Source of the DNA: Antedon bifida
Lineage: Eukaryota; Echinodermata; Crinoidea; Comatulida; Antedonidae
Reading direction: 5' to 3'
Assembly: GCA_963402885.1 (NCBI GenBank)
Contig: OY727096.1
Span: 23,417,820 to 23,481,819, forward strand
Length of the DNA stretch: 64,000 nt
Shown: positions 1,806 through 59,187 of the stretch, piece after piece
Layout: every line of letters begins with the position of its first letter
Numbering within the stretch: the first letter of the stretch is position 1
Notes under the pieces: generated by a model
What the model was told of the DNA's origin: nothing
The model's database searches: none
Seen by the model: the letters and a program-made list of their open reading frames with translations, nothing else
Position numbers and translations under genes: made by a program

Positions 1806-2168
1806 TTATGCGCAGCCGCATTCCTCAACAATCAGACCATGTATTTGGGCTGGAACAATTTCGGAATTTTCCGTAAAGTACAAAAGTCTGAGATCGGCAT
1901 ATTTACGCGCCGAACAGCAGGGAATTGGACTGTTGTTTAAAATCAATAATTGCGTGTGTCGGTTAAAACGTGAAAAGCTAACAGAACAATCGCCACTACA
2001 ATAATGTGTTTTAAAGGAGCGAGGTGCTAATACCCAATCCCAGCCGATTTCTGCAAAGTCGATAACGATTGGATGACGACAACATGGCTTCCTTCCAACG
2101 TCTGGACATATTCGTTTTGGTGTTGGTCGCACTTTACGTTTTCGTAGGGCAATATCTAGAAGTGGTCT
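1806..2168 (-). CDS. Copy A terminal exon 3b: second mature TGF-beta ligand cassette
   Basis: The acceptor TGTATCTGTTTATATAG precedes codon-aligned sequence (phase 0) of 121 codons ending in a stop. The exon starts RPLLDIALRKRKVRPTPKR, giving basic convertase sites (R-K-R-K and R-x-x-x-K-R). Then comes a nine-cysteine mature domain: ICP, CC in GRKPCCRHP, FAEIGWDWVLAP, YCSGDC, PCCSAR and final C-x-C. Nine cysteines is the activin/TGF-beta/GDF8 pattern. It starts only 49 bp after the stop of exon 3a, so it has no room for its own promoter and must be joined to upstream exons by skipping 3a. Sequence differs strongly from 3a but is nearly the same as 3b of copy B over its first two thirds. Confidence 0.87.
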   Translation of the reverse strand, partial: RPLLDIALRKRKVRPTPKRICPDVGRKPCCRHPIVIDFAEIGWDWVLAPRSFKTHYCSGDCSVSFSRFNRHTQLLILNNSPIPCCSARKYADLRLLYFTENSEIVPAQIHGLIVEECGCA

Positions 2169-5100
2169 CTATATAAACAGATACAAAAATTCTCAACATT
2201 TATGTATTTCATTTTAATCAACGGCAGCTGCAAGATTCAACTATCATATCGTCGACGTTTTGTACAACGAATCGGTCCTGATTGTCGGTGTAATATATGA
2301 TAGTAAGGGGCTTAAAACTGGTTGGGGAACAACACTGGGCGAATGAAGGATCGTGGTGTAGGTACAGAGAACTCCCAGGCGCCACCATTGCACTGATTGG
2401 ACATTGGCCTTTACAGTAGTTTGCATTAAAGGAGGTCGGAGCTATAACCCAGTCCCAACCGAATTTTCGGAAGTCAATTTTCAATTCTTGCATGCAGCAC
2501 ACACTGCTGTTGCCATGACATTTGTGTGTGCGTTTGTTGTGTGATCGGCCATGTCGTCTTTTCTTGGTAAATTCCACAGACAACGCTGGACTCTGTGGGC
2601 AAGAAAATAAATTGATTGACAACATGGCCATTTTTGAATGATAAAATAAAAATGTTTTGTTTTTATTGTCGCACGGTGCAGTGGCCGATCGATTCTAGGC
2701 TCATCTAATCAGTCAAAAATGTATCTACAGATCCCAAAAGTCCAAGCAGCCTGTTGGTGGTGTGGTCAAATTATCCCAGAGAAGAACGTGACAAAGTAAA
2801 AGGGTGTGTCTAAGTTCAATTTACATATGAGTGCATACATTATGCTAATGAGTAAACGTAAATGTTGTTTATGCAGTTGGAGAGACTGACGTAAACGCAA
2901 CATAAGTGATTTGACCAATCACAAGCGATTATTCGAACTGTCGCTTGTTATTCGTAAACTATAGCCTACGTTTGCGCTTACGTCTTTGCGTTGCGGCCTA
3001 GTGGGAACCAAGCTTAAATACGCCATAAGAAACTTTAAGACTGGTTCCACCAGAGAGAAATAAAATATTTTTAAAAATAGTGCATCAAACTTCATAGACA
3101 GAGACAACAGGAGTGTGGAGTGCCCGTGTTCATCAATCACCAGTACCTAAGTGGATCATATATTTCCCTTAGAACACTACATTATACATATTTCACCGCC
3201 GACCTATTGAATAAATATTTAAGGATTTCATTTTAAGTGATAGATAACAAATGTGAACGTGGAATGTGAACAAAAAAAAAGTTTATTATAGAATTAGATA
3301 TATTAACTGGGTTCACGAGTTATTCAATCTGCACAATTTATCAAATTAAATCGATGCTACTCAACCAAATCATTAAACAGCAATCAATTTTCTATCGGTA
3401 AAGCATTAAGTGTCGAATCCAAGATTTTGAAATGGGTTTTTAAAATGGTAAATGAAGTGAGGATGTTATTGTTTTACCGAAATGTAGGCCTAAACAATAA
3501 ATTTGGCTCCACAACCCTTCTGTATTGCTAAAATTTAATGTTGATTAATATTTTCCATGAAACAACACGCACACAACGACCCACAAATCGTTCGCGGCGG
3601 CGTTCAAAGGTTGTTGTAAACTTTTTGTACGCGCGCGCCGTTTCCTTACGCGATGTCGTTAACTATTTTAAAAAAAATGATGTAGTATTATACTTACCCG
3701 TCTGTCGTTTGGCCCGGTAATCACTACATTATTGTCTGCTCCGTCGGTAGCCTCTATTTCAATATATTGGTACTTGGTGTCCGTGTCCTTCATCCATTCC
3801 ATCATCAACGGTTTAGCGTCGAATTGTTCCCAACTTCCGACTGTAGTACTTAAAGAAATTGTTTTTTCTTTGTACAATTTTCTTTTTACTGGGGAGGTGG
3901 GTGTAGCGGGGATGATCATGTACACACGAAGACTGGTCACTGTGCGTTGTACTACGTCCGCTTGGTCTGCGTACATCCACAGATTGGCCGCTGCGATGTC
4001 CTGTCCGTCCAAACCAATATTAAAGCACACCACATTTGGAGACATCATATCTTGTTTAGCTACATAGAAAAAACCACAACTCAGCTCTGTCTACACTATC
4101 ACTTTCTGTGACAAAAACATGCGATGTGCCCATATATGGACACGATGATGTCATATCACTACCATATTTGGGAATACCACTACCATATCAAACTAGTTTG
4201 ATAGTGTAGACAGAGCTTAATGATTTTATAGGTTTGCTAATAACTTCCTTAATTACTCGTTAACATGTTGCTTTTGTCATAACACCAAAATAAAATGTAT
4301 TGGCAGCATCTTTGACTACGTTTCGTACAATAACCGATTAAAGTGAAATAAAAATCATTGACGAAACATGTTGTTTGTCCATCCTAGGAGTGTTGATTTT
4401 TTGCGCCGCGGCTCTAGTCAGCCAAGAGGACATATTCATCAATAAGCTGTTTCATAGCGGTAGCTTTAGTATCTAAGGCTGACAGTTTTGCGAATTTGTA
4501 AACTCGACTATAATTTTTAGGTCCCAGTTGCTGGACTTAAAAAAAGTCTGGGAAATGAGCGTCTAAGAGGGTTCACGGTTCGGTTTTTTTTAATAGCAGA
4601 ATCATTTTGGTGCAGCTTGAAAATGCCATCACTTTATTATAACCAGATATTTAGTCATAATTATAAATTTTAGAATAAATGTACGTCCATTTCATAAATG
4701 TGGAAGAAAATGGCAGTAGAATAATTAAGAACACTCTGACAGACAAGGTTAAGTTTAAGTAACTTATGTCTTCAATAATCAATATCGTAGTAATAACAGA
4801 TTAATAAATTAAAAATTGTTCGGCGTAACAACGAAACATGTTTACAAAAATGTTTTTATCAAGCTCAAGTTTATTTTAATTTTATTATGCTGCCGGAAGT
4901 TCGGCAACATTATTCGCTTAAACAGGTGTCAATAATCAAGGACTTATGAAAGTTGGAAAAGCTCTAAAAAAAATCCGTAAAAGCAGGTAGCTGATATAAA
5001 CTCTTAAAAAAAGGTTAATAAATGTATATATGATGTGATACCGTAAAAGCTAACGTAATCTAATCTGTAAAACGTAATCTATAAGTTTCTAAGATTTGCT

Positions 5101-5874
5101 TTAACACTGTAAATGATTCCATTGTTTTCTTCCTATTTTCTCTATTTTGTGTTCTTTCGAATTAAGAAAGAACAAATAATAAATGTTTGAATCATACTTA
5201 CGTTCCGTTGCCAATATGAGAACTCTTTGAATTGAAGCAGAACCGCTGGTATCATCCATGTCGGTGTATTCGACAGGTTCGTCTGCGAACATTTCTTCGT
5301 TTTGCATCTCTGGAATTTGATGAAGGTGCTCTAAGATCGGTGGGTTGTCTGGTATCGGTCGCTTGGCTATTTTCGGTGGGTGTGTCAGTCCGAGTTTATA
5401 CAGTAAAGATGACTTGATCAGTTCAATTTGCCATTCAGTTACTCGTTCATCCTCACAATTTGAGCAAGTTAATGTTTCGTTAGCAGTAACTTCGATTTCC
5501 TCTTCGTACATTTCGTCGTACAAGGAGCTTTGATCGTCTGTTTCCCGATCAGATGTTTCAGAAGCGCGATTATCTTCTGTTGTACGCTCATCTAACGTTG
5601 TTCGTTCATCTTCTGCTGTGCGTTCATCTTCCGTTGCGCGTGCATCTTCCGGTGAGCGATGATCGTCCGTTTTGCGTTCACCTTCTATTGTGCGTGACTC
5701 TTCCGATGTGCGTTGAACTTCCGGTGCACGTTGATCTTCCGGTTGGCGTTGATTTTCCGTTGCGCGTACATCTTCCGTTGCGCGTACATCTTCCGTTGAA
5801 GTATTGTACGTGCGTGGAGATGCCATCTGCATCGGAACGAGAGAGACGAGCAAAATAAAAATAAAGATTGACAT
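1806..5874 (-). CDS. GDF8/11 (myostatin)-like TGF-beta precursor, copy A, with two alternative mature-ligand exons
   Basis: Coding exons on the minus strand: exon 1 5202-5874 (673 bp, ends phase 1), exon 2 3698-4059 (362 bp, ends phase 0), then 3a (2218-2592) or 3b (1806-2168). Exon 1 gives a signal peptide (hydrophobic residues 2-18), an acidic hexapeptide repeat (27-110) and a prodomain helix region like myostatin: IELIKSSLLYKLGLTHPP, then PPILEHL. Exon 2 gives the arm domain: VCFNIGLDGQDIAAANLWMY, and W-x-x-x-D-x-K-x-x-x-x-x-W as in GDF8. As I recall, vertebrate MSTN has the same three-exon plan with phases 1 and 0. Secreted ligand acting through activin-type receptors is the family role. 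Either 3' exon gives a complete precursor. The hexapeptide block is absent from copy B. A TATA/CCAAT promoter lies just upstream. Confidence 0.88.
2218..2592 (-). CDS. Copy A terminal exon 3a: first mature TGF-beta ligand cassette
   Basis: The acceptor TTATTTTCTTGCCCACAG leads, in phase 0, into 125 codons with a stop. It starts SPALSVEFTKKRRHGRSHNK then R, with candidate cleavage at R-H-G-R or R-x-x-x-K-R. The mature domain follows: C-H-G-N-S-S-V-C-C, FGWDWVIAP, NYCKGQC, QCCSPT, ESCSC. It has nine cysteines, so it is a full cystine-knot ligand. The loop between YCKGQC and the CC pair (the wrist/helix region that contacts type I receptor in this family) differs greatly from copy B. I infer it is an alternative to 3b. 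Confidence 0.88.
   Translation of the reverse strand, partial: SPALSVEFTKKRRHGRSHNKRTHKCHGNSSVCCMQELKIDFRKFGWDWVIAPTSFNANYCKGQCPISAMVAPGSSLYLHHDPSFAQCCSPTSFKPLTIIYYTDNQDRFVVQNVDDMIVESCSCR
2885..3016. mobile_element. MITE-like element, family A (left end decayed)
   Basis: Lies in intron 2 of GDF copy A. The right end GCGGCCTAGTGGGAACCAAG is intact, and the centre has TTGACCAATCACAAGCGA with its inverted partner. The left end lacks the outer TTCCCAC part. Confidence 0.7.
4083..4218. mobile_element. MITE-like element, family B
   Basis: In intron 1 of GDF copy A. The outer inverted repeat AGCTCTGTCTACACTATC is mirrored by GATAGTGTAGACAGAGCT. The middle has the paired phrases CCATATATGGACA, GATGATGTCATATCACTACC and CATATTTGGG. 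Six copies occur in the window. Confidence 0.85.
5545..5796 (-). repeat. 18-bp coding repeat (14 hexapeptides) in the copy A prodomain
   Basis: About fourteen consecutive hexapeptides of the form (T/P/A/S)-E-(D/E)-x-R-(A/T/S) run from residue 27 to 110, for example TEDVRA twice, then PEDQRA, TEDERT and AEDERT. The DNA is a degenerate 18-bp tandem repeat read as a strongly charged, probably disordered stretch just after the signal peptide. Copy B has only a short acidic segment here. Confidence 0.85.
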
Positions 5875-5934
5875 CTTGTTGTTTGGCGTCCTACTATAAA
5901 CTTAGAATGATGTTAAAGCTCATGTGTGTATATA

Positions 5935-5973
5935 CCTTATATAACCTATGCAACCATTTATCATCGACCAATC
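5935..5973 (-). promoter_or_regulatory. Core promoter of GDF copy A: TATA box and CCAAT box
   Basis: On the minus strand GATTGGTCGATG (plus 5962-5973) is followed 17 bp later by TTATATAAGG (plus 5935-5944), about 60 bp upstream of the start codon at 5874. The same CCAAT 12-mer and a TATA box occur at the same place before copy B. Function is inferred. Confidence 0.6.
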
Positions 5974-6559
5974 GAAGGCGAGTTTAACTTTGTGTGGTTG
6001 TAGACATTCAGATACATTATTCATTAAAATATATCTCTAAAAATCTTCATATCTGGATCAGTTGTCAATAATGTCAAAATAACCAACCGTATGTAACGTG
6101 TATCCATAAAATATAGTTCGGTTCATTAGAATTGAATTTGAATGGCTATTGAAATAAGTGTCTCATCCGATAGCAGTCGTTTACCCTTTGCTTGTTGTGA
6201 CCATTTCACCTTTCTCAGTCTACTTTTATGGCATTATAACTCGTTTTATATACAAAAACATCGTTTGTATTAACATTTCAAAGTAACATAAATGTTAATG
6301 TATGTGTTGTTGGACCTAGATTAGTCTGTATCCACCTATTTACTTGAACTTCTGTAGTTCACGTCATTCAAGTCTCCGCAATGTATATTTTCATTTGGCT
6401 GTATAAAAGACCTTTCTGGTCCGATTTTGTCACTGTTTGCCGCCACCATTGGCAGCAGGCGTCATAGTAGTTCTGTAATAAGACGCTCAATAAACCGACG
6501 CGCGCGTGCGCAAGTCGTACAATTTCCATCAGGGTTTAAATGCGTGTAACAAATTCCAG

Positions 6560-6764
6560 CTAATGGGACGCAACGCAAGGACGTCGTACTAGGAACGCAA
6601 GTTATTTGACCATTCACAAGCAAGATTTTTATACATTTATTTTTTTCATACAATAGTTTTTCATCATAAATTCGGATGTATTTTTCTAAGATAAAATTGA
6701 TTGATTTAATGGTCAAATGACTTGCGTTGCGCATACTTCCTTGCTCCGCGTCCGTCGCAATTTG
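6560..6764. mobile_element. MITE-like element, family A, enlarged and decayed
   Basis: Left arm GGGACGCAACGCAAGGACG; right arm GACTTGCGTTGCGCATACTT then CGTCCGTCGC. TTGACCATTCACAAGC and its inverted partner lie between. About 200 bp, with extra AT-rich sequence in the centre. Confidence 0.6.
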
Positions 6765-6998
6765 GCGCGCAGTGAACTCAAGACAAGATTATACGAAAAA
6801 TGAATGATAAACTAAAAATGAATGCTTTGCTAGTATTTATTATTGAAACTGTGAACATTTTAATCAACTCTCTATTATATTAACTAAGCTACTATTTTAT
6901 TCTACGGAGGTATTAAAATACCATAGTCAAAATTCTTAATATACTGGTTACAGTTTTTTTTTAATCAGGTAGGTTGAATGTATTCCGGCAAACAACAA

Positions 6999-7133
6999 CG
7001 CTTGGTTCCACCTTGAACGTAATGCAATGACGCAAGCGTACCGCACGCAATTTTAACAATCACAACGCGATGGATTATCCGAGTCGCTTGTGATTGGTCT
7101 ACTATCTTGCGTTCAAGAAAGAATCAAGCTTTG
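6999..7133. mobile_element. MITE-like element, family A, decayed
   Basis: Starts CGCTTGGTTCCACCTTGAAC, ends GAATCAAGCTTTG. The centre carries CAATCACAACGCGATGG and GTCGCTTGTGATTGG. It sits about 210 bp beyond the 3b stop codon of GDF copy B. Confidence 0.65.
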
Positions 7134-7343
7134 CGGTCCTTTATAACTTAAATGGTGTACGGCGAATCAGAGGATCAAACATAATCATGTTTGTGTTTGA
7201 TCCTGATTCATCGTAAGATCTAATTCATCTAAATGCGAATTTTATATAGCTTAAAATTCCAACATTGGTTTTACAATGAAAACTGAAACAAGACTATGTG
7301 AACAGCATCTATGGCAAAGCGTTTGTGTTTATGATCACGTATG

Positions 7344-7718
7344 TTAGACACAACTACAGTTATTAACAATCAGTCGTGGAATCGTAGCGGAAAGAATTTC
7401 CGCATTTTCCGTAAAAAAAAGTAATTTAAGATCACTAAATTTGCGCGCCGAACAGCAAGGAATGGGACTGTTGTTCAAAATCAATAATTGCGTATGTCGG
7501 TTAAAACGTGAAAAGCTGACAGAACAATCGCCACTACAATAGTGAGATTTAAAGGAGCGAGGTGCTAATACCCAATCCCAGCCGATTTCTGCAAAGTCGA
7601 TAACGATTGGATGACGACAACATGGCTTCCTTCCAGGCCCTTCTGGACACACACGTTTTGACGGTGACCGTGTCATGTGTGATTTTCGACTTGTAAGTTC
7701 AATATCTAGAAGTGGTCT
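7344..7718 (-). CDS. Copy B terminal exon 3b: second mature ligand cassette
   Basis: Acceptor TTATATATTTATAG, then 125 codons in phase 0 with a stop. Starts RPLLDIELTSRKSH as in copy A. Convertase-type R-S-P-S-K-R precedes VCPEGPGRKPCC. The nine-cysteine domain is almost identical to copy A 3b through PCCSAR and then differs (ends NNCSCV against EECGCA). Confidence 0.87.
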   Translation of the reverse strand, partial: RPLLDIELTSRKSHMTRSPSKRVCPEGPGRKPCCRHPIVIDFAEIGWDWVLAPRSFKSHYCSGDCSVSFSRFNRHTQLLILNNSPIPCCSARKFSDLKLLFFTENAEILSATIPRLIVNNCSCV

Positions 7719-10365
7719 CTATAAATATATAACAACAATAATTCTGAAAATAGTAATGTAGCTTATTATTTTGCGATATAAACGGAACTATCTGTCTGTT
7801 GCCAACTTAAGTGATAGAAAGAAGAAACACAAATCTGACGCGCGCGTACATAAGTTAACCATTATAAATATTTGAATGTTGGGAGTCTTAAGCCTCTGTC
7901 TACACTATCAAACTTTATGTGACAAAAAATGTGATGTGCCCATATATGGACATGATGATGTTATATCACTACCATATTTGAGCATATCACTACCATATAT
8001 GGGCACATCACACTTTTTTGTTACAAAACGTTTGATAGTGTAGACAGAGCTTTAGCGTTTGTTACGTTTTTGTGGTGTGTGACTAACGATAACATGGACA
8101 GGTTATTAGTAGACCTATCATGTCCCTTGATCTTAGCATTCTCGTCCTACCCCACCCGTGCCCTATATTCCCCTTTGAGCTAAATGATTGAATATAAAAA
8201 GAATTTTTATTTATTGTAGACAACATACTCGTTTTATTATTTTTAAAAAGCCTAATTATTAAAGTTCACTACAACTAGTTACATAATGAGAACATCAATG
8301 ACAGAGACACGATTCTACAATCATATCTGGGACCTCGTCAACTACAAATCGGAAATTTTTATCCGAATAGATCATAGTCAATGGCTTTAATTTAGTTGGT
8401 GAGCAGCACCGATTAACAGCCGACTCTTTACTTAAAAACCATGACAACTCTGAAACTGACGACGTCATCATCGGACTGATCGGACATTCGCCTTTACAGT
8501 AGTTAGCGTTAAAGGAGGTCGGAGCTATAACCCAGTCCCAACCGAATTTTTTGAAGTCAATTTTCAATTCTTGCATGCAACACACACTGCTGTTGCCATG
8601 ACATTTGAGCGTGCGTTTGTCGTGTGATCGGCCATGTCGACGTTGGTTGTTAAATTCCACAGACAAGACGGGACTCTGTGGGCAAGAAAACAAACAACAT
8701 GGCCTTAATTTTTGCTAATTATTGTTTAATATTGTAATAATCTAAATTTGTACTGAATATAGACACTTAAAAATTACACGACGCGTTGCGCCAAACTCAT
8801 TCTGTGACGTCGTGGCCAAATATAAGCCGAATTATAAAATACGCCTTGAAAATGCAATGAAGCTGTAAATATGCGCATGCACTGTTTGCGCCTGCAATAA
8901 GAAAACATTTCGCAGGGAGGTGGAATAGGTGTCCCTAAGTTGTCATGGTTGGTTGGATATTACGTGTATAGCCGTACAATACTATTTATTGAGCAGGATT
9001 TCTAAGTATTTGCTAATATTAAACATTGAATCAATAATAGAATAGTCTGGACAGAGAGTAGACACAAACTTTGACGTAACGCGTACCTTTAATTCTGATG
9101 AAAATGATACGGCTTTTAGTACGCGCGTGTTAAAATAGTGATGAAAATGATACGCGCGTCAATGTTGTGTATTCTCATTGCGTCACTGACAATTATATAT
9201 TACACTCACCCGCCTATCATTAACTGCAGTGACGATCACATCATTGCCTGAACTATCCTCAGCTTCTATTTCAATATACTGATAGCCGGCGCCTCTATCC
9301 TTTATCCATTCTTTCACTAGTTCTTTAGCGTCAAGTTTTTGCCATTCCCCATCCGTAGTACTCAGTGAAATCGTCTTTCCTGTGTACAATTTCTTTTTCT
9401 GAGGGGAGGTGGGTGTAGCGGGAATGATGTTATAAACGCTGAGACGCGTGGCTGTGCGTTGAACGACCTCCGCTTCGTGCACGTAAACCCATAGATGTGC
9501 TGAAGCGATATCTTTGCCTTGTAAATCAACGTTGAAGCAAACCACGTCTGATGAGTTGATTTCTATGGGAGCTATGTAATAAGAAATAATAAGGCCTATG
9601 TTATTTGTTTTTACATTTTAATATAAGACTATGAAAACAATTACAAAGCAACAGAGTATTTAACAAACGTCAAAGACGTTGTGAAACCTTCGATCCACAA
9701 CTAGCCTATTTCATAATTTGGCGTAGTCACAGAACCTATCACAATTTGATTTGACTTTTACTAATTCTGAGAGAAGACGATTGTGAAATTGCCGATAGCT
9801 CTGTTATTTAAAAAAATCTATAATACACGATGTGTGTGGAGTGGATGACAGCGTGAATAGACATACTTTGACACGCGCGTTCAAATGCTGATAATAATTA
9901 ATACGCGCGCGCGTCTATTGTGCGTCTTTCATACGTCACTGCAGACTATAACTGATACTTACGCTCTGTCGCCATGATTAATATACGTTGTATTGATGCT
10001 GCTACGTGAGAGTCGGTTGTATCTGGATCGTCTGCAAACATCCTTTCCTCTTGAATGTCTTGGAACTGCTGAAGGTGTTGTAACATTGGTGGATTCGTTG
10101 GAAGTGGTTTTGCAGTGAAGGTTGGTGGTTGAGTCATGCCAAGTTTTCTTAATATCGAAGCTTTAATCATTTCGATTTGTAAGTCTTTCCTTCGATCTAT
10201 GTCACAATCTTCACAAGCAGGCGTCGCTGGTGTCGTTGCATTTTCAAAATCAACTTCTGTAATAAGTTTTTCTTCGTTAGAACTACTCTCGTGTGTGTGA
10301 TGCGGACATGCCATAAACAAAGGAACGTTGATAACAACCACTAGAAACATACATGATGGCAGCAT
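7344..10365 (-). CDS. GDF8/11 (myostatin)-like TGF-beta precursor, copy B, with two alternative mature-ligand exons
   Basis: Minus-strand exons: exon 1 9963-10365 (403 bp, phase 1), exon 2 9210-9571 (362 bp, exactly as in copy A, phase 0), then 3a (8295-8675) or 3b (7344-7718). Exon 1 has signal peptide MLPSCMFLVVVINVPLFMA, a short acidic stretch, then IEMIKASILRKLGMTQPP and PPMLQHL, the myostatin-type prodomain helices, ending ASIQRILIMATE. Exon 2 has VVCFNVDLQGKDIASAHLWV and the W-x-x-x-D-x-K motif. Layout, phases and splice sites equal copy A. The gene is a tandem duplicate in the same orientation, with its own TATA/CCAAT promoter. The prodomain has diverged far more than the ligand exons. 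Family role: secreted, convertase-cleaved ligand held latent by its prodomain. Confidence 0.88.
7891..8052. mobile_element. MITE-like element, family B
   Basis: Lies between terminal exons 3a and 3b of GDF copy B and accounts for about 160 of the 576 bp there. Ends CCTCTGTCTACACTATCAAA and its inverse; internal ATATATGG palindromes as in the other copies. Confidence 0.85.
8295..8675 (-). CDS. Copy B terminal exon 3a: first mature ligand cassette
   Basis: Acceptor ending CTTGCCCACAG, then 127 codons in phase 0 with a stop. Starts SPVLSVEFNNQRRHGRSHDK then R. The mature domain has C-H-G-N-S-S-V-C-C, FGWDWVIAP, NYCKGEC, RCCSPT and ESCLC: nine cysteines. It is near-identical to copy A 3a up to YCKG(Q/E)CPIS, then the wrist loop is different in length and sequence. 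At 381 bp it equals, as I recall, the length of vertebrate MSTN exon 3. Confidence 0.88.
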   Translation of the reverse strand, partial: SPVLSVEFNNQRRHGRSHDKRTLKCHGNSSVCCMQELKIDFKKFGWDWVIAPTSFNANYCKGECPISPMMTSSVSELSWFLSKESAVNRCCSPTKLKPLTMIYSDKNFRFVVDEVPDMIVESCLCH

Positions 10366-10425: not shown

Positions 10426-10459
10426 ATTTTATAACCCTTGTCGCACCCATCGACCAATC
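10426..10459 (-). promoter_or_regulatory. Core promoter of GDF copy B: TATA box and CCAAT box
   Basis: Minus strand GATTGGTCGATG (plus 10448-10459) and TTATAAAATA (plus 10426-10434), about 60 bp before the start codon. The CCAAT 12-mer is identical to that of copy A and the spacing is similar (13 against 17 bp). Function is inferred from position and conservation. Confidence 0.6.

Positions 10460-22182: not shown

Positions 22183-22256
<74 letters not shown>
22183..22256 (-). tRNA. tRNA-Asn (anticodon GTT)
   Basis: The 74-nt minus-strand sequence starts GTCTCCGTGGCGCAATCGG and ends CGGGGAC plus discriminator G. The acceptor stem GTCTCCG/CGGGGAC pairs with one G-U. The D arm has GCGCAATCGGTTAGCGC, the anticodon loop is CTGTTAA in stem TTCGG/CCGAA, and the T arm has GGTTCAAGCC. 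An oligo-T tract (CTTCTTTTATTTTTT) directly follows on the minus strand and fits an RNA polymerase III terminator. No intron. This looks functional. Confidence 0.96.
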
Positions 22257-22721: not shown

Positions 22722-22727
22722 ATTTCG

Positions 22728-25700
22728 ATGTCGCGTTTGGGCCTGTCGGTATTTGGGGACTTTGTAAATGTCTTTTCCTCCTACATGGCGCCTGGAAATC
22801 TAAAGTGTAACTTCATGGGAAAATCAGAGAACAAATCTACTTCAAACCAACTAGTGTCTCGTAAAAATAACGTGCGAAACAACTCATTAAATTCGGACAT
22901 GGCGAACAAGCCCAACCACCATGTTTCAGACGCGATGGGCATCAACAACAACACCGCCAGCGAACCAAAAACTCTAGGCCTAGGCCTACCAATGATGGAA
23001 GCTGGCGGTGATGGTAGGATACGCTTTGATGATCTTGCAAATTGCGGAGATGCATCAGAATCCAAATTAGATTCACAAGTGACTCATCTTAAAGGACTCC
23101 TTATGCTTCATTTAGACCTTATTCAACAGCAACAAAAAGATTTGCAACAAAAAGAAAAAGAAGTAAAAAAATTACGAGATGAAAAAGAAACGGTAATTTA
23201 TTTTTTTTCAATGAAGTTATTACGGGACCGGGCATACCACATAGACAGTAGGGTCAGGGCCCAGGCAGGCATGTAGAAAAGATGGACAAAATGTTTAAAA
23301 TTTCCAAATTCCATCCATCCAAGTAACAGCATGCTGCCTAGGCTAGTTAGTAGTAGTTATTGTACAAAAGGTATTTACTAGATCTATTATTATGATGCCA
23401 TTGTTACATATAATTGGTCACATTTAAAGATTCAAACAAAATGACCCTTGCACCCGATGATAAAGTAAAGACCAAAGGCAACGTATTCAGCAGCATCAAA
23501 CACTTATTTTGTTCTTGCAGTTGTTATGTCGGCTACAACGTATGGAACGTCGAATGTCTCTAGCAAGTAAAAGTGCACCAATCAAAAATAAGAATTATCC
23601 AACCACACAAACGACTCCAGTAACACCAATAAAAACAGAAACGCCTTCAAAACGGTAGGAAAATACTGTGTAAATAATAGAATAATCAGTCCATAACAAG
23701 TTTTTCATGCATTGATTAATAAGTAAAATTGTTTAATAATAATAGATACCAAATTACCAATTAATTATTTATCTTTCTATTTTTTAATAGTGCCCTCTAG
23801 AGTTTGATGTAATTTTCAAAATGTTGTAGCTCCCTCTATAGTTTGGCTTTCTAAAATCCTGCAATTTCATTTTACCATTACCATATCTTTCTATTTTTTA
23901 ATAGTGCCCTCTATAGTTTCATATCATTTTCAAAATGTCTTTTATAATAATAATGGGCTTATATAGCGCATTGAGTGCATTTTAATAATAATAGTATTTA
24001 GTCTGTCAAAATAGATTTCATTTTAGCAGTCAAAAGGTCTTTAGTGCGCCTTGGATCCGCCCCTAAATCTACATAATATTTTAAAACTTTTACAGGAAGG
24101 CTACAAGTACGCCACATACATCTAAAAAAACTTTACTAGATACATTAGACACAAAAACATACAGATGTGGTTCACCTTCAAAAATAACTAAGGACGGAAG
24201 TTCAATACCTGCAAAAAGGCGATATAGACGGTTTAAAAAATACAAAGAACTCGGTGAGGATAAATTCCATCGGACGAAAGTCCTGTACCCCTCTCTGAGA
24301 GATCTTAGAATTCATGATGAGGAGGACGATGACCTTCCTGTGGATTCGGCATATGTAATAGGTATACTATGATTTATTATTTTTTAATTAGTAATATAAA
24401 TTATATTTTATTTAAGTGCCTGAATGTGGAGAGGAAGATATAGAAAATGAATGTAAAAATAGTTGTCCTGACCAAGACTTGAACTCTCCTGTTATATTTG
24501 AAGATACTCTTCCTTTAGACCACTAATAGTGCTTTTTTGTGGATTGGATAGAATCTGCAGACACAGCTACAATAATAACCCTGATAAAATGGTTTATCAA
24601 GGTAATAACTCATGTTCACCAAGAAAATGTTTTCTGTGTTTGTAAAAACAACATTTTACGGTTTATCTATGTTTTTTTTCATCAGTACCAACATGGAGAG
24701 TGTCACATTCTAATACATCGTTAGATGATTCAAATTCCGGTGAAATAGAGGTACAGTAGTATGAAACAATGCTGATATTATTGTATGTCAACTTAACAGT
24801 GGAGGTCCACTCTACAGCTCTGTCTACACTATCAAACTTTATGTTACAAAAAATGTGATGTGCCCATATATGGACATGATGATGTCATATTACTACTATA
24901 TTTAAGCATATCACTGCCATATTTGGGCACATCACACTAGATTGATAGTGTAGGCAGAGTTTTAATGGAATCTTTCTGGCTGTTACCCCAGTGTACTTGT
25001 TTATCTCAGCCACTATCATCATGGACAGAAGATTGAGCGCTATTTTGTGCCATCTCAAAAACAAAGTGACCTTTAAGCTCTGTCTACACTATCAAACTAG
25101 TTTGACAAAATAAATATGGTAGTGATATGTCCAAATATGGTAGTGATGACATCATTTCCACATCACATTTTTTTGTCACATAAAGTTTGATAGTGTAGAC
25201 AGAGCTTTAAGAGATATGAAAATTGTTATATGTCTGGTGCATTTGAGGCAGTTTACGTATGAAGCATATTATAGATATGAATGCATTATGTGTAATGATT
25301 AGCCAACAGAATTTCAAAACAAATAGTAGTGTTTGCCTAGCACTATTAAATTTAATATTTTTTGTTCATTTTATAGAAAACAGACGACCACACAGTAGAA
25401 ATGCGTCACCAAAAAATGGAAATGGATGAGAAGAAAAGAAAAAAGTGGGATGTACAAAGAATTAGACAAATACGAGAACATGAACGTCTGGAGATGAAAC
25501 AGTTAGAACGTGAAATTGCCCACCGAGAAGACGTTATTGAAACATTTGAACCAGATATAGATGATAGTAAGTGATCTAGAAATACATTTATTGGAATATG
25601 CTTAATATGTTATTAGGAAGATTTTCCAATGATCTGGACTTGGTGATGTAAGCGTGCACAAACCTAATTGCATGCAGGTCCAGAAATTTATAAAGAATAA

Positions 25701-41000: not shown

Positions 41001-44000
41001 TCAACGAAACTGTGATGTAATCCTCTTCCATCATGAGGGCGGTGTTGATATTGGAGATGTAGACGCGAAGGTAAAATTATGCTTTCTGACCGTAGTAAAC
41101 ATTTCCACTATACAGTACTACACTCTATGTTGCTTTAATAAGACAGAATCTTGAAATACAGGAATTGTGTATATTAATATATTCTATTACTTTTCACAGG
41201 CTGTTAAAATGGAAGTTGAATTAGGTTCAAAGGTCACAGCTGCTCAGATCAAAGAAAAGCTTATGTCAAAGGTTATAGCGTCAAAACAAGAGTAAGTGTA
41301 AATCAACTTTTATCTTATACCATGATTTATTTGAAATGAATTTGAATACTATACTAAACAAAAATATGTTTTCTTTTCAGCATGATTGCAAAGTTTGTGG
41401 CCCAGTTGTACGAGCAGTTCCAGGCCTTGTACTTCACCTACCTTGAAATCAACCCTCTAGGTAAAGTATTATGGATTTTTTCTTTAAAAAATTTAGGAGT
41501 TATCAACATTGTTTATTACCGATCAAAAATATTAGTTATTATTTAAAAATCTTTGTTAATATTCAGTTGTAACCGACAAGATTTACATCCTGGACATGGC
41601 AGCCAAACTAGATGCCACAGCTGAGTACCTATGTAAGAGCAAGTGGGGTGAAATTGAATTCCCTCCCCCATTTGGAAGAGAAGCTTTCCCCGAGGTAAGA
41701 CTAAATTTACTCTTCTTGACGTGAAACAGCATTTTAAAATTAGTATTACAAAGTTCTTTATTTCACCAAGTTAAATTGATGATGTTAATTTGAATTTCTT
41801 CTCCCCCATTTGGAAGAGAAGCTTTCCCCGTAGTAAGACTAAATTTACTTTTTTTTATGTGAAACATTTTAAAATTAGTTAAAATTTACAATGTTCTTTA
41901 TTTTCACTAAGGTAAATTGACAATGTTAATTTATGTATGTTTTATAACAAGTTAGATAGTTTACTGACTCCATATGTAATTAATGGCCCACTACAGTTTT
42001 ATCCTCAGTTATAAGCCTACTACTGTATTAACTTTAATTGGGTTGGCCACATGGCTCAAGATACTAAATAATTATTATATTTAATTATGTTATTGCAGGA
42101 GGCATACATAGCAGACTTAGATGCTAAGAGCGGTGCTTCCCTCAAACTGACCATTCTCAACCCCAAGGGCCGTATCTGGACAATGGTAGCCGGGGGAGGG
42201 GCATCCGTCATATACAGTGATACCATTTGTGATCTGGGTGGAGCTAAGGAGCTCGCGAATTACGGAGAGTATTCTGGTGCGCCGACCGAGCAACAAACGT
42301 TTGAGTATGCCAAGACGTTACTTAGCATGATGACCAAGGGAGACGTACGTCCTGATGGAAAAGTTTTGATCATTGGGGGCGGTATTGCAAATTTCACCAA
42401 TGTGGCATCTACATTTAAGGTAAGATTCTAATTTTCTATTTGCTCTTCACTTTAACTTTAATCCTCCAATATTCTGTGTGAACTCCTGTCTCCTATTAAA
42501 TTAACTAAAAATGAAAAACACACACAGCCTATGGTGGACATGCACTGAATGTGCCTGGTATACAGTATAGCATTTATTTAATGTAGTTGCCCAAGATTTT
42601 TAAATAACACCCTCTATGGTGGTTGTTTTTTTTTTTTTTTGGAAAAATTAAAATCCGGGAGACGTCACAAATGTTTGTGATGACAAGATATTTTTTTTAA
42701 TAGCAATTGTTTTTTTTAAGAAAAACTTTGTAAAGTGTCCCGTTTTTAAAAAATAAAGTTGGAACAGAAATACCACAACTTTTACTGATCTATAATAAGT
42801 ATTTTTATAATTATTTTCATTTTGTAGGGAATTGTACGTGCGCTAAGACAGTACAAAGCCAAACTACAAGAATATGGAGTGTCAATATTTGTGAGAAGAG
42901 GTGGACCTAACTACCAAGAGGGATTGAGGGTTATGAGAGAACTTGGTAAGTTAATTCATATTAAATTCATTGAAATACTAATAGGTATGTTAGAGGGAAG
43001 TAAGGACCAATGAAAAATAGCCTGGGCTAAAGCTGTATGTGGTTACCTTGTTCTCTGAGGTGAAAATCTGTTTTATTTACAGCATTATAGAATCAGTCTT
43101 CCTCTTCAAATCCCTTTAGCTAATGAATGGTTTTGTGTATATAACTTGTGTAGCAAAATTAATAACATTCCGATATTATATTTCTGTCTTTGTTTAGGAA
43201 GCAGTCTTGGTGTACCCATCCACGTGTACGGTACCGAGACCCACATGACAGCGATCGTTGGGATGGCGCTAGGTACCCGCGCAATCGAGGATGAAAACAA
43301 AGGAGACCAAATGACTGCTAGTTTCTTATTGGCTGGAAGTGCTGTAAGGTTTTTTTCTTGTTATAAGTAATGTCAATTCAAATCCATTTATCCTTTTTCT
43401 TACTACACACTCCCTCTATATTACCTTATGTACCATAGAGTTTGTCCCGTAATACCTCAAATAGGTCACTAACATACTTTAGAACATAATAGTAGTTTTT
43501 TACATGATTTAAAGTAATGTAAAGTAAGTATTTAAGTAATGTTCCAAAAACAAAGAAATAATGTAAACATGAGTATATTCATTTAATTTTCTTGAAAACA
43601 TATGGTGTACTGCAAGTTTTACTTAACTTGTGTTTATTCACCATACAAACCTTAAACACTATTGAAATATTCTACAGAATATTCTAAATCTACTATACTA
43701 TAATAAATTCTACTATTCTAAAGATTTTTGTCATTTGATTTCATTATAGAAAGACTCTTCGAAATCTACAACCAGCAAGGAGCAAAGTAAAAGCAGCGTG
43801 GCCTGTAAAGAACCTTGTTCTCCTACACAGACTGATGCACCAGTCAAGACACAACCATGTGCAGGAGCAAGCGATAAAAAGCCTTTATTCACTAATGAAA
43901 CATGTGTAAGTACACTAACATAAGTTGTGTTCACACACTAGTGTTAAGCGTGCATAGAATGGATTTTAGCTAAACTGACATAATTGCTTGTGTGAACAGT

Positions 44001-47000
44001 TAACTCTCTTTAGCTTTGTCTCATTAACTCCGATATAACTCTGATGTACCTCCAATTCAGAGAAATATTTGATGAAACCTTTGGAAAATAAACAGATTTA
44101 TCCTGTATAAATGTGTTTTTAAATAAATGAACGCAGAATAAGCTAAACCCCCAAGATTTACTGTATTTAACTCTGATGGCGATAAGAGCGTGTAAACGTA
44201 GCTTTAATTCAGTGTTATTATTATTATTACAACTAGTGCTGTTTCACAACATTTAATGACTTACAAATTGTTTCTTTTGACAGTCTTTGATCTGGGGACT
44301 TCAACCAAGAGCTGTACAGGGTATGCTTGACTTTGACCATTCTTGCCGTCGAAGAACGCCCTCAGTTGTTGGAATGATATACCCATTTACGTAAGTCAAC
44401 TTTTATTGCAACAATTGTTGGACAAATTTTCTATTTCATAGAATCCCTTTTTCATCTTTCAAAATGAAGATTGTCTTCTCATTTAAGCACTAAATTAAAA
44501 TACACCATTTGTATATAATTTCACTATTTTTAATTACTATCTAGTGGTGACCACAAGCAGAAGTTTTACTGGGGTCATAAGGAGATCTTAGTTCCTGTTT
44601 ACAAGTCGATGGAAAAGGCGATGCAAGCCCACCCAGAGGCTGATGTACTCATCAGTTTTGCATCGTTGAGATCGGCCTACGAAAGTACACTTGAAACACT
44701 ACAATATAAACAGGTAGGTCAAGTGAACCATTAAGGGTTATGAGTTGTTTTTGTATGAAGTAGTAGTAGTTTGTATGTAATTTTAACATTGCATATTGTA
44801 TGTTTATATAACTTTTTACATAAATGTTATGTCTTTTATATATACTGTAAATTTTAGTGTTGCCTTGAGGTAAACAAATTTTAAAAAAAAACTATTATCA
44901 ATTTGACAAAGTAATCTTGAATGAGAGATTTATATGTTTCAATTTGACATGCTTGTTTGCAAACCAAAGCCTATACAAATAAAAGCAGGCTACGTGTACC
45001 TTCTCCCTCGCATATTTTCTATTCCCAGCTGGCTCCATTTAGGCTGCTACATCCACAAAATCACACTTTTGATAGAAATATGATTTTAAAATAGCATTAG
45101 TACAGGTGAAACTATTTTCCAGTTTATTCACCATCATCATGAACGCTGAACGTGTTGTGAAATAGCGCACTAATAACAAGACTTCTCCAATGAGAGCGAT
45201 GCCAAAGTGTTTATATTTTATTCATAAACTGTACAAATATTGTTCTTTTTCTTCAGATCCGTACAATAGCAATAATAGCAGAAGGTATTCCAGAGAACAT
45301 GACTCGTCACCTGATAACATTAGCCAATAAACAAGATGTAACAATCATTGGGCCTGCTACCGTAAGTATTCTCTGTATATGCATAAATTCAAAACCTTTA
45401 ATTTATCACGCAGTGGGATGCACTTTCACGCAATGTGGCACCTTCCATTACATATACACTGTGTACTCTTCCATATAGTATTTTAAAAAATGAAATCAAA
45501 TTCTTTTTCTTGCAGGTTGGCGGTATCAAACCAGGTTGCTTCAAAATCGGTAACACTGGTGGTATGTTGGACAACATCCTCGCATCAAAACTATACCGCC
45601 CCGGAAGCGTAGCATACGTATCGCGCTCAGGAGGTATGTCAAATGAACTCAATAACATTGTATCCCGACATACCAATGGCGTATTTGAAGGCGTGGCCAT
45701 TGGTGGTGATCGATACCCTGGAACAACCTTTATGGATCACATAATACGTTATCATGATGACCCAAATGTTAAGATGCTTGTTATGTTAGGAGAGGTAATG
45801 TACTATTTTTGTCTTTTTTAAAGTTAAAACTGTAGTATTGTAGTTTCTCTGTAGTGGATAGAATACTGTAAGCACCTGTGATTTTGAGGCTCTGTCTACA
45901 CTATTAAACTTGTTTGACAAAAAAAGTGTTATTTGTCCAAATATGGTAGTGATATGCCAAAATATGGTAGTGATATGACATCATCATGTCCATAATGAAC
46001 ACATCACGTTTTTTGTCACATAAAGTTTGATAGTGTAGACAGAGCTTTAGAGGAGAAGGTTAAGGAATATTATTATTTCACATATTTCCATCTAATGTAT
46101 TTGATATGACAACAAAGAAACAAATGCTTTATAAAGCTACAGTCAGACTTGCTCTGTTTCATGGAACGGAAGACTTCTGTGAAACGAAACAAGTCTGAAT
46201 GTACCTTTAGTTAAAACGTTATTTATAAATTTGTTTTAGGTTGGTGGCGTCGAGGAATACCAGGTCTGTTCTGCTATTCGTGAAAAACGACTCACAAAAC
46301 CATTAGTAGCGTGGTGTATAGGAACGTGTGCCAGTATGTTCACATCGGAGGTTCAGTTCGGACACGCAGGAGCGTGTGCCAATGGTGAAGAAGAAACAGC
46401 ACGCGCCAAAAATAAAGCTCTGAAGGAAGTTGGGGCGCACGTACCAAATAGCTTTGATGACCTGGGAGAGAAAATTGGGTATGTTTGAAATGAATGGTGT
46501 ACAAAAACACAATCAAACGTTTTATTTCAATTATAAACTTCCAATTGTACACAAAATATCATTGCTAATTGCTTTGTTTATTTATGTAGAGCATCTTGTG
46601 TATATATTTGTGAACAGGATTGCCACCTTTAAGAAGAATAGTGAATGATTACGCTTATGGCTATCCTTGGCAATTTGCCTAAATATATATAAACAAAATA
46701 ATAAACAGATATAAATATATTCTTTACCTTTTGACATAAACATTGCTGTTTAAAATTGACGTCATCTGACCATATTTTTTAAACCCTCATACAGTACATC
46801 ATCTTATTATTCTTTTTGCAGTGAAGTGTACAATAAACTTGTTGAGGAAGGAGTTGTTGTTCCAAGTGAAGAAGTTCCACCCCCTACAGTACCAATGGAC
46901 TATTCCTGGGCACGAGTAAGCTATGTTATGTTTAATTCAATGAGGGTGACTAAATATATATATATATAACACAGGATCAAGAGTTGTGATAAAGAACTGT

Positions 47001-56559: not shown

Positions 56560-57165
56560 TTTAAAAGTTCATCTAAACGGTGATATACTCATCTTTATCC
56601 TCCTTTCAAAAACATTTCTAGCCTATAGTACTCAAATCTTCCTTTAAGTTCTTCTAAACAGTGATATGCTCATCCGTATCCTCCTTTCAAGAACCTTTCT
56701 AGCCTACTCCAATCTTCCTTTAAGTTCATCCATACGTTGGTACTTAGTCGGATCATCTTTTTAGGAACCTTTCTAGGCTACTCCAATCTTCCTTTAAGTT
56801 CATCTATACTGTGGTACTCATCTGTATCATCCTTTTAGGAACCTTTCTAGCCTATTCCAATCTTCCTTTAAGTTCATCTATACGTTGGTACTCATCTGTA
56901 TCATTCTTTTAGGAACCTTTCTAGCCTATTCCAATCTTCCTTTAAGTTCATCTATACTGTGGTACTCATCTTTATCATCCTTTTAGGAACCTTTCTAGCC
57001 TTCCAATCTTCCATTAAGTTCCTCTATACTGTGGTATTCATCTGTATCATCCTTTTAGGAACCTTTCTAGCCTATTCCAATCTTCCTTTAAGTTCATCCA
57101 TACTGTGGTATTCATCTGTATCATCCTTTTAAGAACCTTTCTAGTCTATTCCAATCTTCCTTTAA
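56560..57165 (-). repeat. Tandem array (about 73 bp, 7-8 copies) derived from the 3' end of the TPR-TIR gene
   Basis: Read on the minus strand each unit is GGAAGATTGGAATAGGCTAG, then AAAGGTTCCTAAAAGGATGA and TACAGATGA. The first unit overlaps the last coding codons of the TIR gene (DWNRLERFLKG and stop at 57121-57123). The rest lie in its 3' UTR and are increasingly diverged away from the gene. Confidence 0.85.
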
Positions 57166-59022
57166 AAATTGACCTCTGAACAAACGAATATTTGAAAGAT
57201 GTTCAATTTCTCTGGGAACACAAGCTTGTCTGAGGATTATGGGTGCGATGCAACTTCTTGTAATCATTTCTTCCATTGACTTCATCAGTTCAAATTGCCA
57301 CAGCTTATCCGTCACAGACTCTGGACTGATGATGGTAATGATCTTGAAAGAGTTCTGAATGGCATTGGTGACGTCTGCTGCCATTGATTCCTCAGCGTCA
57401 TAGTCCCGATATCTTACACAGCACCGCATTTTAAAATCTTTCTCCAGTTTTCTTATCAACTCTAAACACCACTTGTAATCGTCATGGCAAAAGCTTATAA
57501 AGAAATCGTATTTATAAGTCTTATTTAACGTTTGATTTTGGTGTGAAATGGGAGGCGATGGCAGCGTCATCTCAGAGAGAACGTTTACATAGCCGGGGAC
57601 ATAACTAAGACAGAATTTAAACTGTGAAATATCACAATCTATACCATTGCATCGTTCATAACGTGACGACTGGAAAGCCTCACCAAGAGTCAAGGTTGAG
57701 CGGTTTAACTGACTACGCGTCTGTTTGTGCAAATGAAGTTGTCTAAGCGCTCCTTCCGGTTCATCAATGGCATACAGACATTCTGCCCAGCGGCAGTAAG
57801 TAATCGAAGGATCAAAATTGTCATTCTGTTCACAATTCACAGCGGCAACAAACTGATTTATTGCCAGGTTGTAGTCACCGAGTAGATAAAGTGTGTAGCC
57901 TAAATCAGAGTGGTCTGCGTGAACCTCTTTCAGGTTTATAGCTTGTTCAAAGTCATTCTTAGCATCTAGTAAAATCTGTCTTTTCTGTACAGTGTCCGTG
58001 ATATAGTCTTTATCTTTGAACATTTCCAGTCGTAGAAGTCCACGATAACGGTACGCAAACCAAGACTCTTCCTGTTTAAGCGAATCGTCGAGGAGGCAAA
58101 GAGCTTCGCTGTATCTTTTCAGATAGATGTACTCAGATGCGGCACGACGCTGAACAATTCTATCGTCAGAATTCACCTTCAACGCTTGCTCAAGACAATC
58201 TTGCGCAGTCATATTTCGCATGTCCTCGTCGTCCACAACTTCACATAAAGTACGACCTTTGACATGACGCAATAGAATACTGATAAAAATCCACGATAAA
58301 GCTTTGTAGCTGAGGGGTCCGTTTTGAACACGAATCACTTTGTTGAAATAAGAAACAGCATTTTTGAAATAATGGTAGGTTTCACTTGGTTTAGCCCCGG
58401 TTGACGTCAATTGAGCGTCTTTTCTATACAAAGCCAGCGCGTAATCAAATAACCATTCAGCTCTCTCTGGTATGGACGTCACGCGTTCTGCCAACTCTGC
58501 AGATTTGATCAAAATATCCATGTACGTGAAATCACGTTTGTCCTGTTGGAAATGGCGAATTGCGTGAGCTTTATCGATCATCGCTCTAACCTTTGCTTTA
58601 GTATCGTCTACCTGCATTATCCTCATTAACGCATTTCTGTATTCTCTGTATTTGCTAAGTTTTGATTGTCTGAAATATATTACAGCCAAATTTGATATTG
58701 CATTGTAATTGCCTGAATCACGCGCCAAAATTTCCTCCCAGACGCTGACGCTAAGTTGTGTCTGCCCAGCAGTGTACAGTACATACGCTAATAAGTTATT
58801 TATACTGAGGTAATATGTTGGAAGTTCATTGTAATTAACGTTTCTACTAGATAATAATTGTATCTCTGTTTCAAAATGTTTAATTTTAATCTTTTTCAAA
58901 TCAGTCCATGTCAAATGACAAGAAAGTTCCTCTCCATTCGATGTGTTAAGTTGAGGTGATGTTTCGGTAGTACTGGTGGGGCAAGTGCGCCACTTCTCGC
59001 ATGACGTCAGTTGTATGTCCAT
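57121..59022 (-). CDS. TPR-repeat protein with C-terminal TIR domain
   Basis: One long minus-strand coding exon of 633 codons (ATG at 59022). An acceptor ATTGTTATAG just upstream (exon boundary 59025) shows at least one earlier, probably noncoding, exon. Residues about 60-480 are helical repeats of TPR type (for example AQTQ then LGYTLYLLGDYNLAINQF and CRWAECLYAIDEPEGALRQL). Residues about 503-633 are a TIR domain: YDFFISFCHDD (box 1), CVRYRDYDAEESMAADV (BB-loop region), IITIISPESV, a conserved E in WQFEL, and LFRGQF near box 3. The BB loop lacks the usual proline-glycine of Toll-type TIRs. TIR domains either scaffold immune signalling or cleave NAD; which applies here is not shown. TPR-TIR proteins are part of expanded innate repertoires in some invertebrates. 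AATAAA on minus at 56320-56325. Confidence 0.85.
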   Translation of the reverse strand: MDIQLTSCEKWRTCPTSTTETSPQLNTSNGEELSCHLTWTDLKKIKIKHFETEIQLLSSRNVNYNELPTYYLSINNLLAYVLYTAGQTQLSVSVWEEILARDSGNYNAISNLAVIYFRQSKLSKYREYRNALMRIMQVDDTKAKVRAMIDKAHAIRHFQQDKRDFTYMDILIKSAELAERVTSIPERAEWLFDYALALYRKDAQLTSTGAKPSETYHYFKNAVSYFNKVIRVQNGPLSYKALSWIFISILLRHVKGRTLCEVVDDEDMRNMTAQDCLEQALKVNSDDRIVQRRAASEYIYLKRYSEALCLLDDSLKQEESWFAYRYRGLLRLEMFKDKDYITDTVQKRQILLDAKNDFEQAINLKEVHADHSDLGYTLYLLGDYNLAINQFVAAVNCEQNDNFDPSITYCRWAECLYAIDEPEGALRQLHLHKQTRSQLNRSTLTLGEAFQSSRYERCNGIDCDISQFKFCLSYVPGYVNVLSEMTLPSPPISHQNQTLNKTYKYDFFISFCHDDYKWCLELIRKLEKDFKMRCCVRYRDYDAEESMAADVTNAIQNSFKIITIISPESVTDKLWQFELMKSMEEMITRSCIAPIILRQACVPREIEHLSNIRLFRGQFLKEDWNRLERFLKG

Positions 59023-59187
59023 CACCTATAACAATAAAAAAATAATAATTTAAGATTTAAATTTATCATTGTGAAATTTCATTCTTCCTCTTATTTCTTT
59101 TAGTAGGATTGATACAGTGGCCGCACTTTGGGTGAAAGAGATTGGAAGAAACACCAACCTTTTTAAAAAATAAAAACTTAATCCACT

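Follow-up and report, generated by a model that had tools for sequence, protein, structure and literature searches.

Two tandem GDF8/11-type genes of the crinoid Antedon bifida, each with two complete ligand exons predicted to share one prodomain

Two tandem genes and their ligands

The window analysed here, a 64,000-nucleotide stretch of DNA at positions 23417820-23481819 of contig C9 in the 315.6-Mb, 27-contig assembly of Antedon bifida, holds two genes of the GDF8/11 (myostatin/GDF11) type, gene A (5874-1806) and gene B (10365-7344), each of which appears to offer two alternative ligand exons behind one prodomain. The genes lie in tandem on the minus strand, B first and then A, and both have the same set of exons, 1, 2, 3a and 3b (Table 1). 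Exons 1 and 2 are separated by a phase-1 intron, the boundary between exon 2 and either 3a or 3b is in phase 0, an AG stands directly before 3a and 3b in both genes, and each of these third exons (hereafter cassettes) has a stop codon of its own. The exon coordinates and shared phase-0 junctions of an initial annotation, which had been made from the sequence alone, held on re-splicing, and in all four spliced coding sequences the frame stays open as far as the cassette's own stop (A3a, 469 residues; A3b, 465; B3a, 381; B3b, 379).

Ligand folds were assigned by sequence profiles, and positions 2-104 of the 104 positions of the Pfam TGF_beta profile are covered in all four third exons. Together with this profile, the translations bear out the nine-cysteine ligand, the R-x-x-x-K-R site and the separate stop that had been read in each third exon; the cleavage-type sites are RSHNKR, RPTPKR, RSHDKR and RSPSKR. 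The furin motif is R-x-K/R-R, and the form with arginine at P6 is also a convertase site. In none of the four does the basic site nearest to the ligand follow the canonical motif, and 3a has RHGR further upstream. In the prodomain, the open reading frames of exon 2 match TGFb_propeptide above the cut-off, and those of exon 1 match it only below the cut-off.

When the spliced proteins were compared with the PDB, pro-GDF8 (6umx) was the best match of all four, with prodomain and ligand colinear (A3a, 3e-33; A3b, 2.2e-35; B3a, 2.6e-40; B3b, 1.2e-42), and the top three matches of every protein were the three pro-GDF8 sequences. Because this likeness extends over prodomain and ligand in all four proteins, it is not due to chance. 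As in myostatin and GDF11, A and B encode a colinear prodomain and ligand with the GWDW..AP motif and the CC pair. Vertebrate MSTN has three coding exons, the last of which encodes the ligand, and the same exon boundary, and A and B match this plan of three coding exons and a phase-0 boundary before the ligand. They differ from GDF8/11 genes in having two complete alternative ligand exons per gene instead of one and in forming a tandem pair, and their R-x-x-x-K-R site differs from the RSRR of pro-GDF8 (5nxs).

The two cassettes are not equally close to known ligands. The best PDB matches of A 3b are GDF11 and GDF8 (GDF11, 5.5e-26), and for A 3a activin A and GDF11 are nearly tied (1.4e-22 and 4.8e-22). 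In the ligand tree 3b is grouped with GDF8/11 at support 79/69 and all four cassettes with GDF8/11 at 64/15, neither of which is strong, and FastTree joins 3b to GDF8/11 (0.77) and places 3a in a broader group that includes activins (0.87), the nearest join of 3a having only 0.24. Neither a grouping of 3a with activins (p 0.171) nor a tree in which the four cassettes form one clade (p 0.342) was rejected, so that 3a may have originated as a copy of 3b or may stem from an activin-like gene. By sequence, 3b is the ligand more like vertebrate GDF8/11, and 3a is the divergent one. No relatives were found when viral contigs were searched with A 3b or with an alignment.

Two further features lie within the genes. 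In exon 1 of A, a degenerate 18-base coding repeat of 12.6 copies (window 5572-5800) gives the acidic, arginine-rich stretch between the signal-like peptide and the prodomain, and B is without it. An element resembling a miniature inverted-repeat transposable element (MITE), with terminal inverted repeats (CTCTGTCTACACTATCAAA...), is found at 4083-4220, in intron 1 of A, where it ends 23 nucleotides (nt) before exon 2, and at 7888-8052, in the spacer between 3a and 3b of B.

Table 1 Features of genes A and B (positions in the window)
Feature	Position	Strand	Description and basis
Gene B, upstream 12-mer	10448..10459	-	GATTGGTCGATG upstream of the ATG, then TATA-like TTATAAAA (by eye)
Gene B, exon 1	9963..10365	-	Signal-like N-terminus (by eye) and N-terminal prodomain; ATG 10365, donor GTAAGT after 9963, phase 1; pro-GDF8 match
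Gene B, exon 2	9210..9571	-	Remaining prodomain, NDRR at end, phase 0; Pfam PF00688 1.2e-07
Gene B, exon 3a	8295..8675	-	Proximal ligand, 126 aa, own stop; PF00019 1.2e-25
Gene B, 3a-3b spacer	7719..8294	-	576 nt; AATAAA at 8238, 8215 and 8211; MITE-like insert
Gene B, exon 3b	7344..7718	-	Distal ligand, 124 aa, own stop; PF00019 2.7e-21; acceptor AG within in-frame TAG
Gene A, upstream 12-mer	5962..5973	-	GATTGGTCGATG upstream of the ATG, then TATA-like TTATATAA (by eye)
Gene A, exon 1	5202..5874	-	Signal-like N-terminus (by eye), acidic/Arg-rich repeat stretch, N-terminal prodomain; spliced frame, pro-GDF8 match
Gene A, exon 2	3698..4059	-	Remaining prodomain, NDRR at end, phase 0; PF00688 3.6e-06
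Gene A, 3a block	2380..2636	-	86.9% identical to B 8463-8714 over 260 columns (blastn); includes 3a acceptor and, in the first half of ligand 3a, a probable gene-conversion tract
Gene A, exon 3a	2218..2592	-	Proximal ligand, 124 aa, own stop; PF00019 2.2e-24
Gene A, 3a-3b gap	2169..2217	-	49 nt from 3a stop to 3b acceptor, without poly(A) hexamer
Gene A, 3b block	1854..2199	-	81.9% identical to B 7392-7751 over 360 columns (blastn); core (A 3b residues 25-88) is a probable gene-conversion tract
Gene A, exon 3b	1806..2168	-	Distal ligand, 120 aa, own stop, zero methionines; PF00019 3.9e-23

Routes to the distal ligand

The codon right before 3b, in frame, is TAG in both A and B, and it is made by the acceptor AG itself. 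In A the exon contains no methionine and begins 49 nt past the 3a stop, and in B the first methionine is residue 15, without a leader, and a start inside or just before 3b was rejected on these grounds. No donor scoring at least 7/9 was found inside 3a or between 3a and 3b in either gene, so the joining of an internal 3a donor to 3b was rejected as well. Given the in-frame TAG, the lack of a usable methionine, leader or donor and the short gap in A, a 3b protein needs an upstream phase-0 exon, and the one found is exon 2. Splicing onto exon 2 would be the only evident route to a 3b protein, barring non-AUG starts or trans-splicing, which are unlikely devices.

Other sources of a prodomain were sought in the window and in the genome. 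The window was scanned in six frames (stop-to-stop fragments of at least 20 aa, E up to 10) with profiles of the four ligands and of the two prodomains. The ligand profile recovered the four known cassettes and nothing further, and the prodomain profile recovered the four known prodomain exons only, with none between 3a and 3b, which agrees with the initial annotation. Together with the in-frame TAG, the missing start of A 3b and the missing donor, this makes its proposal of one prodomain serving either of two ligands the best-supported reading of the locus. In the genome, where profile searches score the best candidates only and counts are lower bounds, PF00688 was matched in at least 15 places: exon 2 of B and 14 others, all outside the window. 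A genome search with the exon-2 prodomain of A (E<=1) matched only A and B and found no third myostatin-type gene; another precursor for 3b was thus not seen.

A separate gene or transcript beginning past 3a, with a promoter and leader for 3b, would find room in B, where the spacer is 576 nt long and has poly(A) hexamers past 3a. However, just 49 nt separate 3a and 3b in A, A 3b has no methionine, an in-frame stop stands right before 3b in both genes, and no prodomain exon lies between the cassettes. In addition, the 12-mer GATTGGTCGATG has 2 matches in the window, both before exons 1, and 0 in any of 100 shuffles. We regard such a unit as highly improbable. Splicing across the genes, by which exon 2 of B would also reach the cassettes of A and both genes would work as a single locus, with as many as four ligands joined to the B prodomain, receives hardly more credence from us. 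Orientation and phase are alike, the acceptors are compatible, and only about 1.5 kb lies between the B 3b stop and the A start codon, but A has exons 1 and 2 of its own and the upstream element in common with B, and poly(A)-type hexamers occur past B 3b.

The 3' ends of the two genes were compared by a scan for five poly(A)-type hexamers, extended to 500 nt past 3b in A. None of the five occurs in A between the 3a stop and the 3b acceptor (49 nt), and the first AATAAA past 3b within the scanned distance starts at 1376. In B, three AATAAA start no more than 85 nt past the 3a stop (Table 1), and further poly(A)-type hexamers occur downstream of 3b. The lack of a hexamer between 3a and 3b argues for competing acceptors on one 3' end in A and not for independent terminal exons, and in B, where such hexamers do lie between 3a and 3b, the two are predicted to be alternative last exons proper. 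The mutually exclusive terminal exons that had been proposed for both genes are therefore retained for B and replaced, in A, by two competing 3' splice sites with one 3' end. When all 3261 AGs of the minus strand were ranked by an approximate weight matrix, the 3a acceptors were strong (rank 29 in A and 10 in B), and those of exon 2 ranked 116 (A) and 330 (B), although exon 2 of B is required for both products.

Selection, probable gene conversion and age of the cassettes

The two genes are old paralogues. Between A and B, the proportion of synonymous sites that differ (pS) is 0.81 in exon 1, which is saturated, and exon 2 has a synonymous distance (dS) of 2.26, near saturation, with a nonsynonymous-to-synonymous ratio (dN/dS) of 0.12. 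In contrast, silent differences are few in the first halves of the cassettes: pS is 0.22 in residues 9-68 of 3a against 0.83 in the C-terminal part (Fisher p 8e-7), and in residues 25-88 of 3b (the core) pS is 0.20 and the nonsynonymous proportion (pN) 0.007, against a pS of 0.73 in the C-terminal part (Fisher p 8e-5). Gene conversion between A and B is the simplest cause and has probably made the first halves of both cassettes alike, with RNA constraint as the alternative. Because of this conversion, only the C-terminal halves inform on the age of the cassettes.

In the C-terminal parts past the tracts, pN/pS is 0.38 in 3a (p 5.4e-8) and 0.38 in 3b (p 2.7e-4), and inside the tracts it is 0.30 in 3a (p 0.009) and 0.03 in the 3b core (p 1.8e-5). 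The excess of silent over replacement change in the C-terminal parts and the very low pN of the 3b core indicate that both ligands have been kept for their protein. Under neutral simulation, with indels not counted, both copies kept an open frame over the 56 non-core codons of 3b in 371, 127 and 53 of 5000 runs at distances of 0.5, 1.0 and 1.4 per site. The suggestion that the arrangement is likely functional thus gains support from purifying selection on both ligands between the two paralogues.

With regard to age, A3a and B3a are identical in 19/31 and A3b and B3b in 17/31 C-terminal columns, and the cross pairs in 7-9/31. As identity within a type exceeds that between types in these columns, the split of 3a and 3b is most likely older than the duplication of A and B. 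The best tree of the C-terminal columns joins A3a and B3a (86/78), A3b and B3b are not sisters in it, and forcing them together gives p 0.436. The possibility that 3a and 3b arose inside gene A only was rejected on the full ligand tree (approximately unbiased test, p-AU 1.1e-40, a figure inflated by conversion); on the C-terminal columns alone, with A3a as sister to A3b, the test is marginal (p 0.063). The earlier statement that the arrangement predates the duplication is accordingly upheld by the C-terminal identities; the first halves, owing to conversion, and the tree test lend it no firm support.

Taking these observations together, we assign a probability of about 0.83 to the reading that each gene joins one signal peptide and prodomain to either of two complete ligands by alternative 3' splicing. 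Several points weigh against it. First, the 3b acceptors are weak, ranking 227 and 495 of the 3261 AGs; within the same stretch, 7 of 71 AGs outscore the 3b acceptor in A, and that of B lies outside the best 10 of 87. Second, blastn between A and B detected no conserved intronic element apart from exon-adjacent sequence, the other matches being those of exons and splice sites (3a with 3b among them), the MITE-like element present in both genes and a pair of short stretches in inverted orientation. Third, constraint is not clearly evident in the N-terminal 24 codons of 3b (pN/pS 0.78, p 0.78), which encode the prodomain tail and the cleavage site, and the frames could have been kept open partly through gene conversion. 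Finally, the junctions of exon 2 with 3a and 3b are predicted from the genomic sequence of one species alone.

The weak 3b acceptors, the unconstrained prodomain-tail part of 3b and the probable conversion tracts would also fit a relic, in which one cassette (3b or 3a) is in use and the other is a decaying exon duplicate that remains readable by chance and gene conversion. However, both cassettes are intact in A and B although the synonymous sites of the prodomain are at or near saturation, the C-terminal parts of 3a and 3b are under significant purifying selection and the 3b core shows the strongest selection of all, and the nine cysteines and the K-R site are retained in both copies of each cassette. 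We consider a relic unlikely, though the most credible of the three competing explanations.

Possible use of the two ligands and comparison with known systems

If one prodomain serves two ligands, 3a would be the default product, as it is proximal and has a strong acceptor, and skipping of its acceptor would lead to 3b, the ligand more like myostatin, as the regulated choice; low usage of 3b is the sober alternative to such regulation. In gene A two acceptors would compete within a single 3' end, and 3b would be part of the 3' untranslated region (UTR) of the 3a mRNA, whereas in gene B cleavage at the poly(A) signals past 3a would compete with splicing to 3b. Every precursor would be cleaved after K-R and then held by the common prodomain, and heterodimers of 3a and 3b could form where one cell makes both isoforms. 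The use of both junctions and the default usage are predictions from sequence, as are secretion, processing, latency, dimerisation and receptor choice. The C-terminal half of the ligand comprises the wrist helix and fingers 3-4, and receptor choice may differ among the four ligands, as those of A and B diverge in their C-terminal halves. We also put forward, as a tentative proposal to which we would give somewhat less than even odds, a splice-controlled switch, in which one latent myostatin prodomain would be loaded with either the GDF8/11-like 3b or an activin-like 3a (with another receptor preference, or an antagonist), and heterodimers would arise if both are made. The finger-1 halves would be exchanged by gene conversion and the receptor-facing C-terminal halves would stay distinct, with four ligands from two genes.

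To our knowledge, TGF-beta ligands follow the rule of one gene, one prodomain and one ligand. In the calcitonin/CGRP (calcitonin gene-related peptide) system, a hormone switch is achieved by alternative exons behind one leader, and A and B match the layout of such terminal exons, with common 5' coding exons and two in-phase 3' exons that each have a stop. A poly(A) signal between the terminal exons is a feature of calcitonin/CGRP-type genes; in this position hexamers occur in B and none in A. Alternative splicing is known from the myostatin gene itself: the sheep myostatin splice variant (MSV) is reported to arise by removal of a cryptic intron; it keeps a 256-residue N-terminal part, has a changed C-terminus with a unique 65-residue tail and antagonises myostatin (PMC3846833). 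MSV offers a new tail, whereas A and B offer a second complete nine-cysteine ligand. In the sea cucumber A. japonicus, exon skipping is reported to yield AjCTP1 with both peptides and AjCTP2 with one (PMC12638048). The AjCTP1/2 gene is similar to A and B in having one precursor front and alternative exons with different hormones, but its products are short peptides and not a TGF-beta-type prodomain with a cystine-knot ligand, and in A and B the separate stops make the products exclusive.

Among the matches listed in the open-licence TGF-beta/myostatin and calcitonin/CGRP literature (titles and abstract starts), none reports a TGF-beta gene that offers a choice of complete ligand exons. Nor is such a gene mentioned in the available portions of the reports on brittle star Gdf8 (PMC11310086), sea cucumber TGF-beta proteins (PMC12295056), sea urchin 'Myostatin-like C' (PMC11239237), Capitella (PMC7522025), myostatin promoters including that of A. 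japonicus (PMC6477727) and a 24-species survey (PMC5979292). The layout of A and B can be regarded as a new form of GDF8/11 gene. If the proposed splicing is true, the secretion and latency module is kept and the whole ligand is swapped, which would be a natural experiment in prodomain-ligand exchange; it would couple myostatin-type signalling to tissue-specific splicing and provide a new source of ligand heterodimers. Annotation would also be affected, as a pipeline with one transcript per gene would lose two of the four ligands, and A 3b would pass for 3' UTR.

Elsewhere in the window, a tandem array with a 78-base unit (3.9 copies, 97% matches) occupies the left edge (1-308), and a tRNA gene (22183-22256), an exon of an MSL1 dimerisation domain (22722-23273; 2e-06) and exons of ATP-citrate lyase (42072-45818; Citrate_bind 3.5e-59, Ligase_CoA 6.9e-12) are present. 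On the minus strand at 57124-59025, a 634-codon open frame encodes a TIR domain (TIR_2, 3e-09) with sub-threshold TPR matches.

In the genome as a whole, PF00019 was matched in at least 20 places. Four of these are the cassettes; the remaining 16 were taken as 15 ligand loci, as two adjacent places correspond to the first and the second part of a single domain. This split domain aside, no ligand pair as close as 3a and 3b was found elsewhere among these places, which include sequences that we take, by eye, to resemble TGF-beta proper, nodal and lefty, a set consistent with a deuterostome. Three near-identical copies of a BMP-like ligand are present on two contigs (C14:760822, C8:29292534 and C8:29308379), and both C8 copies end in CGFR, compared with CGCR in the C14 copy, and so lack the last knot cysteine. 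The split domain lies at C11:25427447 and 25428179, where a single ligand domain is apparently divided between two exons (profile positions 2-56 and 46-104).

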